Of a DNA stretch of 38,741 bases, positions 1-6,454 are shown one piece after another. The first letter of the stretch is position 1, and the number at the start of each line of letters is the position of its first letter. A program made the position numbers and the translations under genes. The notes beneath the pieces were generated by a model. It did not search any database, had not been told where the DNA came from, and saw nothing but the letters and a program-made list of their open reading frames with translations. Source of the stretch: Clostridia bacterium (GTDB taxonomy: Bacteria; Bacillota; Clostridia; Oscillospirales; Acutalibacteraceae); contig JAKSQM010000015.1 in assembly GCA_024404115.1 (NCBI GenBank), positions 1-38,741 of the forward strand, written 5' to 3'.

Positions 1-71
1 TCGGCACTAATGAGCTTAACTACCGTGTTCGGGATGGGAACGGGTGGACCCTCATCGTCGTAAGCACCAAC
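1..71 (-). rRNA. rrf: 5S ribosomal RNA, 5' portion (cut by window edge)
   Basis: The reverse complement carries the conserved 5S core, including the CCATCCCGAACACGG block and the following AGTTAAGC segment. The 5' end lies near position 71, and the 3' part runs off the left edge. No 23S rRNA lies upstream of it; the next feature upstream is a promoter and then a protein gene. It is therefore either a stand-alone 5S gene or the first gene of a 5S-first rRNA operon. The exact 5' end is estimated. Confidence 0.93.
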
Positions 72-1749: not shown

Positions 1750-1778
1750 TTGACAAATAAAACGGCGTGTGATAGTAT
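1750..1778 (+). promoter_or_regulatory. Promoter for the fluoride-riboswitch transcript
   Basis: TTGACA (1750-1755), a 17-base spacer, then TAGTAT (1773-1778) preceded by TGA, which makes an extended -10. The predicted start of transcription, near 1785, coincides with the first base pairs of the riboswitch aptamer at 1786. Confidence 0.75.
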
Positions 1779-1785
1779 CTTTCGT

Positions 1786-1838
1786 CGGGAATGAAGTTCT
1801 CCCGAGGTGATACCTGAACCGCTTTCAAGCTGATGACT
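1786..1838 (+). promoter_or_regulatory. Fluoride riboswitch (crcB RNA motif)
   Basis: The sequence matches the fluoride aptamer. Stem P1 is CGGGA/TCCCG (1786-1790 with 1800-1804). Its loop ATGAAGTT forms the pseudoknot with ACTTC (1836-1840). An accessory hairpin AGGTGATACCT (1805-1815) follows, and then the hallmark GAACCGCTTTCAAGCTGATG (1816-1835), in which CGCT/AGC closes over a TTCA loop. This order (P1 with a pseudoknot loop, then the GCTGATG segment) is that of the well-studied Thermotoga aptamer. A terminator overlaps the 3' part of the aptamer, so fluoride binding should prevent termination (an ON switch). It controls the antiporter gene that follows. Confidence 0.92.
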
Positions 1839-1874
1839 TCTGTGAAATTCACAGGGTCATTGGCTTTTATTTTG
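1828..1874 (+). terminator. Riboswitch-controlled intrinsic terminator
   Basis: AGCTGATGAC...CTGTG (1828-1844) pairs with CACAGGGTCATTGGCT (1850-1864) through a long stem with wobble pairs and one bulge, followed by TTTTATTTTG. The left arm uses the aptamer's conserved GCTGATGAC segment, so the terminator and the fluoride-bound aptamer exclude each other. Confidence 0.85.
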
Positions 1875-1891: not shown

Positions 1892-3085
1892 ATGCTTTTA
1901 AGTCTTGCTCTTATTTCCCTTTGCGGAATGTTAATCGGAAGCCTTTTCAAAAAAATCAAGCTTCCGCCACTTTTAGGAATGTTGTTGACAGGAATAATTT
2001 TAGGCCCTCACGTGCTGAATCTTTTAAGTGATTCTGTTCTCTCTGTTTCGGCAGATTTAAGGCAGATTGCGCTGATAATTATCCTCACCCGTGCAGGTCT
2101 TAACCTGAACACTGACGATTTGAAAAAGGTGGGCAGACCTGCACTTCTGATGTGCTTTGTGCCTGCCTGCGCAGAGATGGTTGGCACAATTCTTCTTGCC
2201 CCTGCGCTTCTCGGTATAAGCAGAGTTGAAGCCGCTGTTATGGGCGCAGTTGTTGCGGCGGTTTCCCCTGCGGTTGTTGTGCCAAAAATGCTTAATCTTA
2301 TGGAAAACGGCTATGGCACAGATAAAAGCATTCCACAGCTTATTTTAGCAGGTGCTTCTGTTGATGATGTTTTTGTAATCGTGCTGTTTTCTTCTTTTAC
2401 AGATATTGCAAAAAGCGGAGTCTTTCACCCTGCACAGCTTGTGAGAATCCCCACATCAATTGTGCTTGGTCTTGCAGGCGGTGTTGTCTGCGGAATAATC
2501 CTCGGTAAGCTATTCCAAAAGATACATATGAGAGATAGCGCAAAGGTTATAATTATTCTCAGCGTTTCATTCCTTTTGGTTACACTTGACGGTAAATTGA
2601 AAGGCACAGTGGGCTTTTCGGGGCTTCTTGCAGTTATGAGCATGGGCACTGCTATTCAGAAAATGAAAAATGACACAGCTTCAAGAATTTCGCAAAAATA
2701 TTCAAAGCTGTGGGTTGCGGCAGAGGTTATCCTGTTTGTGCTTGTTGGTGCGGCAGTTGATATTGAATACGCTAAAAACAGCGGAGTGAAAGTAATTGCA
2801 CTTATTTTGGGTGCGCTGATTTTCAGAATGGCAGGTGTGCTTCTTTGCCTTATCAAAACAAATCTTAACAAAAAAGAGCGTGTTTTCTGTATGCTTGCGT
2901 ATATGCCAAAGGCTACGGTGCAGGCGGCAATCGGCTCAATCCCCCTTGCAATGGGACTTCCCTGCGGAAACGCTGTTCTCACAACGGCTGTTATGGCAAT
3001 TCTCATAACCGCTCCGTTAGGCGCATTTTTAATTGACATGACTCACAAAAAACTGCTTGTAAAAAATAAGGAGCAGAGTGTTTAA
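1892..3085 (+). CDS. Cation:proton antiporter, fluoride-responsive
   Basis: This 397-residue integral membrane protein of the monovalent cation:proton antiporter family (CPA/NhaP-like) has about 10-12 hydrophobic segments. Family marks include the N-terminal GxLFKKIKLPPLLGMLLTG (about residues 17-36), the segment LTRAGLNL (about 65-72), and LAGASVDDVFVIVLF (about 151-165), where the paired acidic residues in a membrane helix match the ion-binding site. Antiporters of this family that follow fluoride riboswitches are a known alternative to CrcB/Fluc and CLC-F for fluoride export or tolerance. Here the riboswitch supports that role. The ATG follows AAAAGGAG by 7 bases. No partner gene is evident, and the next gene is convergent. 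Confidence 0.88.
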   Translation: MLLSLALISLCGMLIGSLFKKIKLPPLLGMLLTGIILGPHVLNLLSDSVLSVSADLRQIALIIILTRAGLNLNTDDLKKVGRPALLMCFVPACAEMVGTILLAPALLGISRVEAAVMGAVVAAVSPAVVVPKMLNLMENGYGTDKSIPQLILAGASVDDVFVIVLFSSFTDIAKSGVFHPAQLVRIPTSIVLGLAGGVVCGIILGKLFQKIHMRDSAKVIIILSVSFLLVTLDGKLKGTVGFSGLLAVMSMGTAIQKMKNDTASRISQKYSKLWVAAEVILFVLVGAAVDIEYAKNSGVKVIALILGALIFRMAGVLLCLIKTNLNKKERVFCMLAYMPKATVQAAIGSIPLAMGLPCGNAVLTTAVMAILITAPLGAFLIDMTHKKLLVKNKEQSV

Positions 3086-5019: not shown

Positions 5020-5732
5020 GTAAGAATAAAGAATTAGGTTCACCCTATATTGAAAAGACCCATTTCTGGGGCAGAATTTTCTCAGTTATTGCATTTATCA
5101 TTCTTTTATCTGTTCCCACAATGATAACTGTTCATTATGATGCACACCCCACATTCCATCAGATTTTTGACGGATTCGTAAGCGTTGCACTTATTTTCTG
5201 GACAGCGGCTATCCTTGAAATTATCGTTTATGCTCCTATGCTTGGCACTGGCGCATCTTACCTTTCATTTGTAACAGGCAACACCACAAACCTCAAGCTC
5301 CCTTGCGTGCTTAATGCCCGTGAAATTGCAAAGCCGAAGCCCGGCACAGACGAGGACGAAATCGTTTCAACAATCGCAGTTGCAACATCAACAATTGTTA
5401 CAACAATCATCCTTGCAATCGGTGTTCTTGCACTTACTCCCATTCTTCCAAAAATCACAGCAAAAGGCTCAGTTTTTGCACCTGCATTCAATCAGGTTCT
5501 TCCTGCACTTTTCGGTGCTCTTGGTGCTGGCTATTTTGCAAAGCATTGGAGAATTTCATTTGTGCCGATTCTCACAGCGGTTATCTGCCTGCTTTTCAAC
5601 GGCAACCTCGGCACTGGAACACTTATTCCAATCTGCGTTGTTGTTTCAATCCTTGGCGCATATGTTATGTATATCAGCGGATTCCTTACAGGCGGTGTAA
5701 AACCTGAGAATCCCCTTAAAAAGAAGAAATAA
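5016..5732 (+). CDS. Membrane protein coupled to the DUF5058-like protein
   Basis: This 238-residue protein has about 6 hydrophobic segments (about residues 18-38, 49-72, 115-140, 155-170, 176-192 and 200-220) and a lysine-rich C-terminus. The start was placed at the ATG of 5016, which overlaps the TGA of the upstream gene and has GGAGG at 5003-5007, 8 bases before it; an in-frame ATG at 5001 lies upstream of that site. A cytoplasmic loop with KPKPGTDEDEIVSTIA sits between segments 2 and 3. No confident family match was recognised. The overlap and similar size suggest that it partners the upstream protein as a two-component permease. Copy 1 of the structured repeat begins immediately after its stop and probably terminates the transcript. 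Confidence 0.7.
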   Translation: MSKNKELGSPYIEKTHFWGRIFSVIAFIILLSVPTMITVHYDAHPTFHQIFDGFVSVALIFWTAAILEIIVYAPMLGTGASYLSFVTGNTTNLKLPCVLNAREIAKPKPGTDEDEIVSTIAVATSTIVTTIILAIGVLALTPILPKITAKGSVFAPAFNQVLPALFGALGAGYFAKHWRISFVPILTAVICLLFNGNLGTGTLIPICVVVSILGAYVMYISGFLTGGVKPENPLKKKK

Positions 5733-5734
5733 AA

Positions 5735-5850
5735 TGTTTCAGTAAAAATACAAGCTCTATTTGGCATACTTGTGGGTATCTGAAGTTTGTTTGGCGACAA
5801 AGAGCTAATGTATTTTTCGTGCGTTCGATTTTGGTCGGGCGCATTTTTTA
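5735..5850 (+). repeat. Structured repeat copy 1, ending in an intrinsic terminator
   Basis: This unit of about 116 bases recurs at 5975-6089. The outer stem is AAAAATAC (5744-5751) with GTATTTTT (5810-5817), continued by AGCTC (5753-5757) with GAGCT (5802-5806). Inside are a small ATAC/GTAT hairpin and a TTTGT/ACAAA hairpin. It ends in the terminator TGCGTTCG/CGGGCGCA (5820-5827 with 5836-5843) and TTTTTT. It starts 3 bases after the stop codon of the membrane gene, so here it behaves as a structured 3' UTR and terminator. Confidence 0.75.
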
Positions 5851-5895
5851 TTTAATAATACTTTTGAATTTGTGTATGTTCTTTTTATAAAGATG

Positions 5896-5924
5896 TTGAA
5901 AATTTTTTCGGTTTATGGTAAAGT
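5896..5924 (+). promoter_or_regulatory. Promoter upstream of structured repeat copy 2
   Basis: TTGAAA (5896-5901), 17 bases, TAAAGT (5919-5924). Transcription would start near 5931, exactly at the first base of the long stem GCGACACAAACTT. That coincidence supports this being the start of a structured RNA or leader. Confidence 0.6.
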
Positions 5925-5930
5925 AAGAGT

Positions 5931-6089
5931 GCGACACAAACTTAATATTTTAGATTCCACAGGTGTGTATTTTACTTCGGTAAAAATACATGCTCTATTT
6001 TAGCATACTTGTGGGTATCTAAAGTTTGTGTCGCAGCAAGGAGCTAATGTATTTTTCGTGCGTTCGGCTTCGGCTGAACGCATTTTTTA
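5931..6089 (+). ncRNA. Candidate structured RNA or attenuator leader (repeat copy 2)
   Basis: This contains the second copy of the repeat plus a 5' extension. Structure A matches copy 1: AAAAATACAT (5982-5991) with ATGTATTTTT (6047-6056) and GCTC with GAGC. Structure B is exclusive of A: GCGACACAAACTT (5931-5943) pairs perfectly with AAGTTTGTGTCGC (6022-6034), then AGAT/ATCT and CCACA/TGTGG, capped by TGTATTTTAC-TTCG-GTAAAAATACA (5966-5990). A 10-bp terminator with a TTCG loop follows (6059-6082) and then TTTTTT. The XRE gene starts 19 bases after the T-run. It is either a riboswitch-like leader of that gene or a small RNA of about 158 bases. No known RNA family was recognised. Confidence 0.55.
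6059..6089 (+). terminator. Intrinsic terminator in front of the XRE gene
   Basis: TGCGTTCGGC (6059-6068), TTCG loop, GCTGAACGCA (6073-6082), TTTTTT. Compared with the copy 1 terminator, both arms changed together while pairing was kept, which supports function. The ribosome-binding site of the XRE gene begins only 6 bases after the T-run, so the terminator lies within that gene's 5' leader. Confidence 0.85.
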
Positions 6090-6107
6090 CTTTAAGGAGG
6101 AAGTAAA

Positions 6108-6299
6108 ATGAGCTTTGCCGAAAACTTCAAAAAAGCACGCATCAATGCAGGGTTTACACAACAGCAGGTTGCAGACGCACTTAGCCTTGACCGCAGTTCA
6201 ATCGCACATTATGAAAGTGGAAAAAGTGTGCCGAGTATGCGAAATCTCAACAAAATATGTGAAATGTTTGAAATAACACCTACTGAGATTTTAAAATAA
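6108..6299 (+). CDS. Small XRE-family transcriptional regulator
   Basis: This 63-residue protein consists almost entirely of a helix-turn-helix of the XRE/Cro-cI type. The recognition segment is GFTQQQVADALSLDRSSIAH followed by YESGKSVPSMRNLNKICEMF (about residues 16-55), the classic five-helix pattern. There is no effector or dimerisation domain. The ATG follows AAGGAGGAAGTAAA. The gene lies behind the structured repeat and its terminator, so its expression likely depends on read-through or RNA control. The target is unknown; the nearby structured repeat or the upstream membrane operon are obvious candidates for binding, but no operator was proven. Confidence 0.85.
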   Translation: MSFAENFKKARINAGFTQQQVADALSLDRSSIAHYESGKSVPSMRNLNKICEMFEITPTEILK

Positions 6300-6317
6300 A
6301 TAAATTTAAAAAAAGTA

Positions 6318-6346
6318 TTGATATTTATCTGGAATTGTGGTAAAAT
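6318..6346 (+). promoter_or_regulatory. Promoter of the rimP-nusA-infB operon
   Basis: TTGATA (6318-6323), a 17-base spacer, TAAAAT (6341-6346). It lies just after the XRE stop codon and 109 bases before the rimP start. Confidence 0.7.
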
Positions 6347-6371
6347 ATTGACAATGTAAGATTTGATGGTT

Positions 6372-6399
6372 CAAAAGAGTGGGGCGACCCGCTCTTTTG
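6372..6399 (+). promoter_or_regulatory. rimP leader hairpin
   Basis: This 12-bp stem runs CAAAAGAG...CTCTTTTG with one wobble pair, an inner GGG/CCC and a GCGA tetraloop. A hairpin of this look (AAGAGTGGG / CCCACTCTT type) commonly precedes rimP in Firmicutes. A weak T-run follows (TGTGTTTGTTT), so it may act as a leader attenuator or processing site for the ribosome-maturation operon. Confidence 0.7.
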
Positions 6400-6454
6400 T
6401 GTTTGTTTGCACAGTTTGCAATGTTACATAATATTTTAAAAAGGAGGCTTATTT

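Follow-up and report, generated by a model that had tools for sequence, protein, structure and literature searches.

In this study, we analysed a stretch of 38,741 nt from a Clostridia bacterium of the Acutalibacteraceae (contig JAKSQM010000015.1; hereafter the window), in which a small gene for an XRE-type regulator is preceded by a structured RNA that carries its own promoter and terminator, and in which a second, truncated copy of this RNA probably closes the transcript upstream. Our analyses suggested that the RNA is probably a cis-acting transcription attenuator of riboswitch-like design, predicted from sequence comparison, and that it belongs to a widely dispersed, apparently uncatalogued family. 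The intact unit occupies 5896-6100 and comprises the promoter, an RNA starting at about 5931, a terminator at 6058-6088 and a ribosome-binding site, after which the regulator gene follows. The features, with the grounds for each in brackets, are these:

5738-5849, forward strand: 5'-truncated copy 1, with strand Y at 5744-5757, P2 3' arm at 5768-5781, P1 3' arm at 5783-5795, strand Z at 5802-5817 and terminator at 5819-5849
5896-5924, forward strand: promoter of the intact unit, with TTGAAA at 5896-5901, a 17-nt spacer at 5902-5918 and an extended -10 element TGG+TAAAGT at 5916-5924 (sequence, and elements common to 139 units)
5931-6088, forward strand: copy 2, the intact RNA unit, a leader that ends in a terminator (match to covariance model R1 at 5931-6086, 133.6 bits)
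5931-5943, forward strand: 5' arm of stem P1, partner 6022-6034 (folds; covariation in 26 units)
5951-5968, forward strand: 5' arm of the variable stem P2, limits approximate, partner about 6003-6021, inner end overlapping strand X (folds; arm-swap test)
5966-5975, forward strand: strand X, partner Y, together P3 (pairing count on alignment A2; column tests on 128 units)
5982-5995, forward strand: strand Y (AAAAATACATGCTC), partner X or Z
6003-6021, forward strand: 3' arm of P2, containing ACTTGTGGGTATCT at 6007-6020 (folds; arm-swap test; mismatch counts)
6022-6034, forward strand: 3' arm of P1 (folds; covariation)
6040-6056, forward strand: strand Z (GGAGCTAATGTATTTTT), partner Y, or, with 6040-6052, partner 6058-6071 as antiterminator
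6058-6088, forward strand: intrinsic terminator, stem 6058-6068/6073-6083, TTCG loop, U-run to 6088 (fold of -17.2 kcal/mol)
6094-6100, forward strand: Shine-Dalgarno sequence AAGGAGG (sequence)
6108-6299, forward strand: small XRE-type (Cro/C1) regulator of 63 aa, ATG at 6108 (HTH_19 3.4e-17, HTH_3 2.1e-14)

A covariance-model search for homologues had been proposed in the first-pass annotation of this DNA, and such homologues were found, together with covariation. The model, R1, has 158 positions and was built from 26 units. A total of 145 matches (at least 54 bits, sense strand) were kept by hand, and 139 remained after six duplicates were removed; weak or antisense rows, window copy 1, a truncated copy (C9), L033 (62.9 bits, lacking the P1 5' arm), the second occurrence of L158 within L159 and an L076 row cut by the contig end (109 bits) were left out. 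Column tests were run on 128 of the 139 units, 134 having passed a segment filter and six more having been removed as redundant.

Over the 26 units, P1 was 99.7% paired, with six of its 11 pairs changed on both sides, and the terminator stem was 99.1% paired. The arms of P2 paired with their own partners at a median of -17.3 kcal/mol, compared with -6.4 kcal/mol when arms were swapped between units. In alignment A2 the pairing X:Y was 90.7% paired; for this stem a register of sum 115 was rejected and that of sum 117 adopted. X:Y and Y:Z covaried independently of each other, the Y:Z pairing showing covariation independent of X. In the window, the P1-P2 part at 5931-6034, without Z and the terminator, folded at -41.1 kcal/mol (z -9.6) and the stretch 5927-6096 at -62.6 kcal/mol (z -6.9), with no shuffle as good in either case. 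P1 was kept in sequence and not merely in pairing: GCGACACAA was the P1 sequence in 53 of the 128 units, and AATA stood close to the end of P1 in 91 of them, compared with 13% in shuffles. On this sequence evidence, P1 and AATA would be the likeliest recognition site. Other versions of P1 include GCCACACAA, GCCAAACAA and GCTACACAA, and the bases after the 3' arm differ as well; the two window copies carry different versions (5783-5799 and 6022-6039), which could reflect different recognition.

The promoter was kept at a fixed distance from the RNA. A TANNNT box lay 4-16 nt before the first stem in 136 of the 139 distinct units, compared with 36% in shuffled upstream sequence, and TA at -12/-11 with T at -7 stood at the exact distance from the first stem in 124. 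The bases TTG at -35 to -33 were present in 94, 85 and 81% of units, TG at -15/-14 in 91 and 89%, and T at -12 and at -7 in 91% each. It is this promoter that would give the 5' end near 5931, a position at which the first-pass annotation had also expected one. Behind the units, an open reading frame (ORF) with a Shine-Dalgarno-like site began within 260 nt in 126 of 139 cases, within 80 nt in 112 and within 25 nt in 81. Pfam annotation of 110 downstream proteins (from ORFs no further than 80 nt away, of 45 aa or more and truncated at 330 aa) gave BspA-type LRR_5 in 25, HTH_3 in 10, CHAP in five and double zinc ribbon in five, and many of the others, on reading, start with a lipoprotein- or signal-peptide-like sequence. 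The second window copy leads into the XRE gene, as had been noted before, and 11 of 11 XRE homologues found in this genus (E up to 1e-10) had a unit directly upstream, the weakest at 56 bits, compared with none of four more distant homologues from other genera.

The conserved strands suggest a mechanism in which each has two partners. Strand Y would pair with X or with Z, strand Z with Y or with the terminator 5' arm, and the terminator 5' arm with Z or with its own 3' arm. The ON state would then combine X:Y with the antiterminator and the OFF state Y:Z with the terminator, so that the unit would choose between stopping transcription and continuing it into the downstream gene. Three features of an attenuator were found: an intrinsic terminator between promoter and gene, an upstream strand (Y) that sequesters the antiterminator strand (Z), and an antiterminator overlapping the terminator 5' arm, the last seen by in-register complementarity only and with little covariation. 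Z, extended into the linker, was complementary to the terminator 5' arm and beyond over 17 pairs, with 90.9% of cells paired, compared with 21-54% in slid registers. After P1, the minimum-energy fold was the antiterminator in 96 of the 128 units, the terminator in 21 and a mixture in 11. Moreover, the conservation of the terminator stem sequence across unrelated genes would speak for an antiterminator, because a terminator alone would not require it. Median estimated energies were -64.0 kcal/mol for ON and -70.1 kcal/mol for OFF, with a median difference of -7.3, before any pseudoknot penalty. Such a penalty amounts to several kcal/mol, and it would make the two states comparable, as a switch needs.

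A number of results weigh against the switch. Two of the five Y:Z measures were not above shuffles (pairs changed on both sides, 268 of 500; further pair types, 433 of 500). The antiterminator hardly covaried: 37, 405, 23, 220 and 11 of 500 shuffles reached the five observed values in the 26-unit alignment, and own and swapped partners formed 10.41 and 10.33 of 12 pairs (111 of the 128 units). Higher antiterminator z-scores from the column tests were biased and have been withdrawn, the partner having been located by its complementarity. The extension of the antiterminator gave a slight signal, three of six positions reaching p 0.006-0.04, uncorrected (108 of 140 units). The window copy leans strongly to OFF, at -55.6 kcal/mol for ON and -69.8 kcal/mol for OFF, a gap of 14 kcal/mol before the penalty, and its terminator (-17.2 kcal/mol) is favoured over its antiterminator (-15.2 kcal/mol). 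Judging from the geometry, Y:Z alongside an intact P1-P2 would need a pseudoknot. Few unpaired bases are conserved, and thus a small-molecule pocket is not evident, and the trigger could equally well be a protein or a metabolite. Finally, the rule used gave no ORF for 13 of 139 units; some of these lie at contig ends, and in one, L015, it overlooked an XRE ORF. Because of the lean of the window copy to OFF and the two Y:Z measures, we set our confidence in the attenuator slightly lower, and we still consider it the probable reading.

Weaker R1 matches of 200-221 nt (L210-L221) contain an extra hairpin and apparently represent a second architecture of the same family (about 205 nt, compared with about 158 nt). 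Twelve of these long matches, not all independent, were read. The upstream sequence was promoter-like in all eleven that had any, all twelve carried AATA close to where the P1 5' arm ends, and Y:Z paired at -16 to -21 kcal/mol in the eleven in which Z could be located. An antiterminator reaching into the linker was the minimum-energy fold in eight of these eleven (L210, L212, L214, L216, L217, L218, L219 and L221), with linker extensions that differ in sequence yet remain complementary (CTA/TAG in three, CAA/TTG in four and CAAACG/CGTTTG in one); in L213 the antiterminator lacked such an extension, and the terminator was favoured in L211 and L215. A natural form without strand Y was also seen: in L026 (1515-1613, reverse strand; G008 C25), where an XRE gene follows the unit, a near-perfect simple hairpin takes the place of the X/Y part, with promoter, Z and terminator kept.

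The family is common in parts of the Clostridia. A DNA search gave matches in 19 of 60 genomes, own genome included. With R1, and again counting the own genome, matches were found in 114 of 300 genomes and 57 of 135 genera of the family (E up to 1e-3), and in 96 of 391 genomes and 56 of 223 genera of the class (E up to 1e-6). At E up to 1e-6, a sample of 398 drawn from the whole phylum gave the own genome only and none of the 397 others, at least 14 of which belong to the same class; the large samples were searched with stricter filters, which lose weak matches. Among twelve chosen genomes (E up to 1e-4), the own genome had six matches and the richest four had 15, 23, 28 and 29. A pattern scan of named records returned at least 120 stretches, and the 80 loci listed were all titled as metagenome-assembled genomes or uncultured Clostridia, Oscillospiraceae, Ruminococcus and the like, many of them from rumen, gut or faecal sources. 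Identical units were shared by L079 and L009 and by L063 and L029, one of each pair lying in the genus of the window. An exact degenerate pattern gave no match in IMG/VR, and a plasmid scan gave none; a phage scan returned two unannotated faecal contigs, both with an R1 match, one of which looks chromosomal on reading (ClpB- and YicC-like ORFs), while the other carries an integrase-like ORF. Two full units stand in tandem before an XRE gene in L020 (1451-1605 and 1670-1819, forward strand), each with its own promoter, and further close pairs occur in L102, L089 and L060. In L223 (3002-3157, forward strand), a unit precedes zinc-ribbon-like and lipoprotein-like genes on a contig with an integrase-like ORF (gene calls by reading), and from this sequence the cassette may travel on integrative elements.

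These results change the picture of the two window copies. The first-pass annotation had described two related stretches, each with a hairpin terminator at its end, and this holds (88% mean column identity over the aligned part; E 5.0e-31 in the own-genome search). It had further held that the paired bases of the two terminators changed together: the sequences do differ and the pairing is kept, and on reading there is one two-sided change (A-T to G-C) among several one-sided ones. The copies are not equivalent, as had been assumed, since copy 1 is without promoter, P1 5' arm, P2 5' arm and strand X. Coding sequence occupies their place, the upstream gene ending at 5732 and copy 1 beginning 6 nt past its stop. 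R1 scored this copy at only 40 bits, and by its sequence it is probably a plain terminator of the upstream operon. The earlier limits, 5735-5850 and 5975-6089, also have to be redrawn: the intact RNA begins at about 5931, and the 5' arms at 5931-5943 and about 5951-5968 pair with the core that had been taken as single-stranded. Stretches near those limits reached z -3.6 and -4.9 with their terminators; without them, 5735-5818 gave z -1.5 (21 of 200 shuffles as good) and 5966-6058 gave z -1.9 (10 of 200), so that the apparent stability came mostly from the terminator. The supposed conserved core, ACTTGTGGGTATCT, forms one side of a stem that is free to differ in sequence from unit to unit. Its best match had four to seven mismatches in each of the 127 other units, four being reached in 21 of 127, compared with four of 128 shuffled. 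As other units match it little better than shuffles, the 14 nt common to both window copies point most simply to duplication. Another 5'-truncated copy in the own genome precedes another unit and an XRE-like gene (G000 C9). A further weak R1 match in the window (C8, 34423-34515) was rejected, being just a terminator on reading. The proposal of a cis-regulatory RNA family has fared well, with homologues and covariation found and a cis-regulatory role probable. Its supposed link to this one locus has not, since the family is dispersed before many unrelated genes, those of the XRE type being a minority, with six matches in the own genome and up to 29 elsewhere in the twelve genomes counted.

Other explanations of the family have to be weighed against the attenuator. 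The units have their own promoter and terminator, paralogues show conservation of Y, Z and the linker, and 13 of 139 have no ORF found behind them, all of which would suit a trans-acting small RNA, whose product is the terminated 158-nt transcript, whose alternative pairings are used for RNA-RNA contacts, either with targets or from copy to copy, and whose downstream gene is reached by leaky read-through. We regard this as unlikely, given that in 81 of 139 units the distance from the 3' end to an ORF with a Shine-Dalgarno-like site is no more than 25 nt and that Z is complementary in register to the terminator arm, which a plain small RNA does not need. Less probable again is a mobile repeat (a transposon end, a miniature inverted-repeat transposable element or a mobile terminator) that carries promoter and terminator without any regulatory switch. 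The dispersed copies, up to 29 per genome, the tandem and truncated ones, the copy on a contig with an integrase-like ORF (by reading) and the mobile attenuators described in the part of PMC2965389 covered here speak for such a repeat. It is countered by the divergence of the copies with double changes that keep pairing, by the asymmetry of the unit, with the promoter at one end and the terminator at the other, by a 3' end often just before a start codon, and by the own genome, where no near-identical copies were found (the closest in the DNA search had 85% identity). At 5600-6450, the RNA stems make up the main inverted repeats found.

The attenuator itself admits a more specific form, possible but held with less than even confidence, in which the folds are shifted by an RNA-binding protein that recognises P1 with its neighbouring AATA, and not by direct binding of a small molecule. 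The conserved P1 sequence and AATA and the scarcity of other conserved unpaired bases fit this proposal, while the conservation of P1 could also reflect the transcription start; no candidate protein was found, and no search was directed at one. No conserved leader peptide was seen by eye in five units. In type III toxin-antitoxin systems an RNA antitoxin stands before a ToxN, CptN or TenpN gene; of the 53 families matched by the 110 downstream proteins, the 25 shown include no such toxin, and the window gene is of the XRE type.

Other RNA features were also seen in the window. A fluoride riboswitch at 1778-1849 (forward strand; 44.6 bits, above threshold) stands directly before a gene of the Na+/H+ exchanger family (1892-3085, forward strand). 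Upstream of rimP (about 6373-6405, forward strand) lies a strong hairpin followed by a T-rich tail, which could be another leader or a terminator; a weak L20_leader match, under threshold, lies near it. A 5S rRNA match at 1-71 (reverse strand) has its 3' end cut by the end of the window and contig.

The earlier statement that none of the common riboswitch signatures fits agrees with Rfam 15, in which no family reached its gathering score on the window units or on units in 32 further loci scanned, and no match to the units appeared at E up to 5 or 1. Matches to mir-1 (other strand, E 0.0067) and L20_leader were far under thresholds and were taken as chance. The scan itself works, as fluoride, T-box, tRNA and 5S families were found elsewhere; the T-box leader RF00230 had no match in the units, and a T-box lies elsewhere in L020. 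No such family was met in the portions covered of PMC8040213, PMC6429828, PMC11109978 and PMC2965389 or in literature searches, supplements and one major catalogue lying outside this scope, and phrase searches of the accessible part of PMC9481103 gave no match. The family may be listed, unnamed, in a catalogue of 224 candidate RNAs or in supplementary tables.

As a regulatory RNA without a match in Rfam 15, it would rank among the commoner unexplained leader RNAs of gut and rumen bacteria (96 of 391 class genomes; 23 to 29 copies in three of twelve) and would place under one signal many envelope genes whose role is unknown, chiefly those for BspA-type LRR proteins. The pairings are defined well enough for a small set of reporter mutants to test them. 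More speculatively, and in our view less likely than not, these promoter-fused cassettes might constitute a major switch class, so far uncatalogued, of the gut and rumen Clostridia, with up to about 29 copies in a genome and at least two architectures. They would join surface proteins, lipoproteins and small regulators in a single RNA-sensed regulon under one shared effector, either a community signal or one from the cell envelope. Cross-talk in trans might also occur, given the similarity of X, Y and Z from copy to copy.

Among published relatives, cited from the parts covered, the SLH motif is a riboswitch candidate of Clostridia and others, about 60% of its examples standing before genes with S-layer homology domains (PMC6429828). 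The present family resembles it as a candidate leader RNA in Clostridia and differs in its gene partners, BspA-type LRR, CHAP and XRE, the two being set apart by description only. Mobile attenuators, described as belonging to insertion sequences or bacterial interspersed mosaic elements, are related attenuators that stand before unrelated genes at dispersed sites of a genome (PMC2965389). The present units are likewise dispersed before unrelated genes; as a point of difference, several of their helices show compensatory change. Attenuators with competing hairpins are a known kind, and what was not found in Rfam 15 or the searched literature, and is apparently uncatalogued, is this family with its fixed promoter distance, copy number and gene set. 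The known kind includes trp-type leaders, the T-box, PyrR and preQ1-I riboswitches. With these the units share ordered strands that have two partners each and a choice between antiterminator and terminator before a gene; they differ from them in a promoter held at a fixed distance and in a sensor that contains a long hairpin of free sequence.
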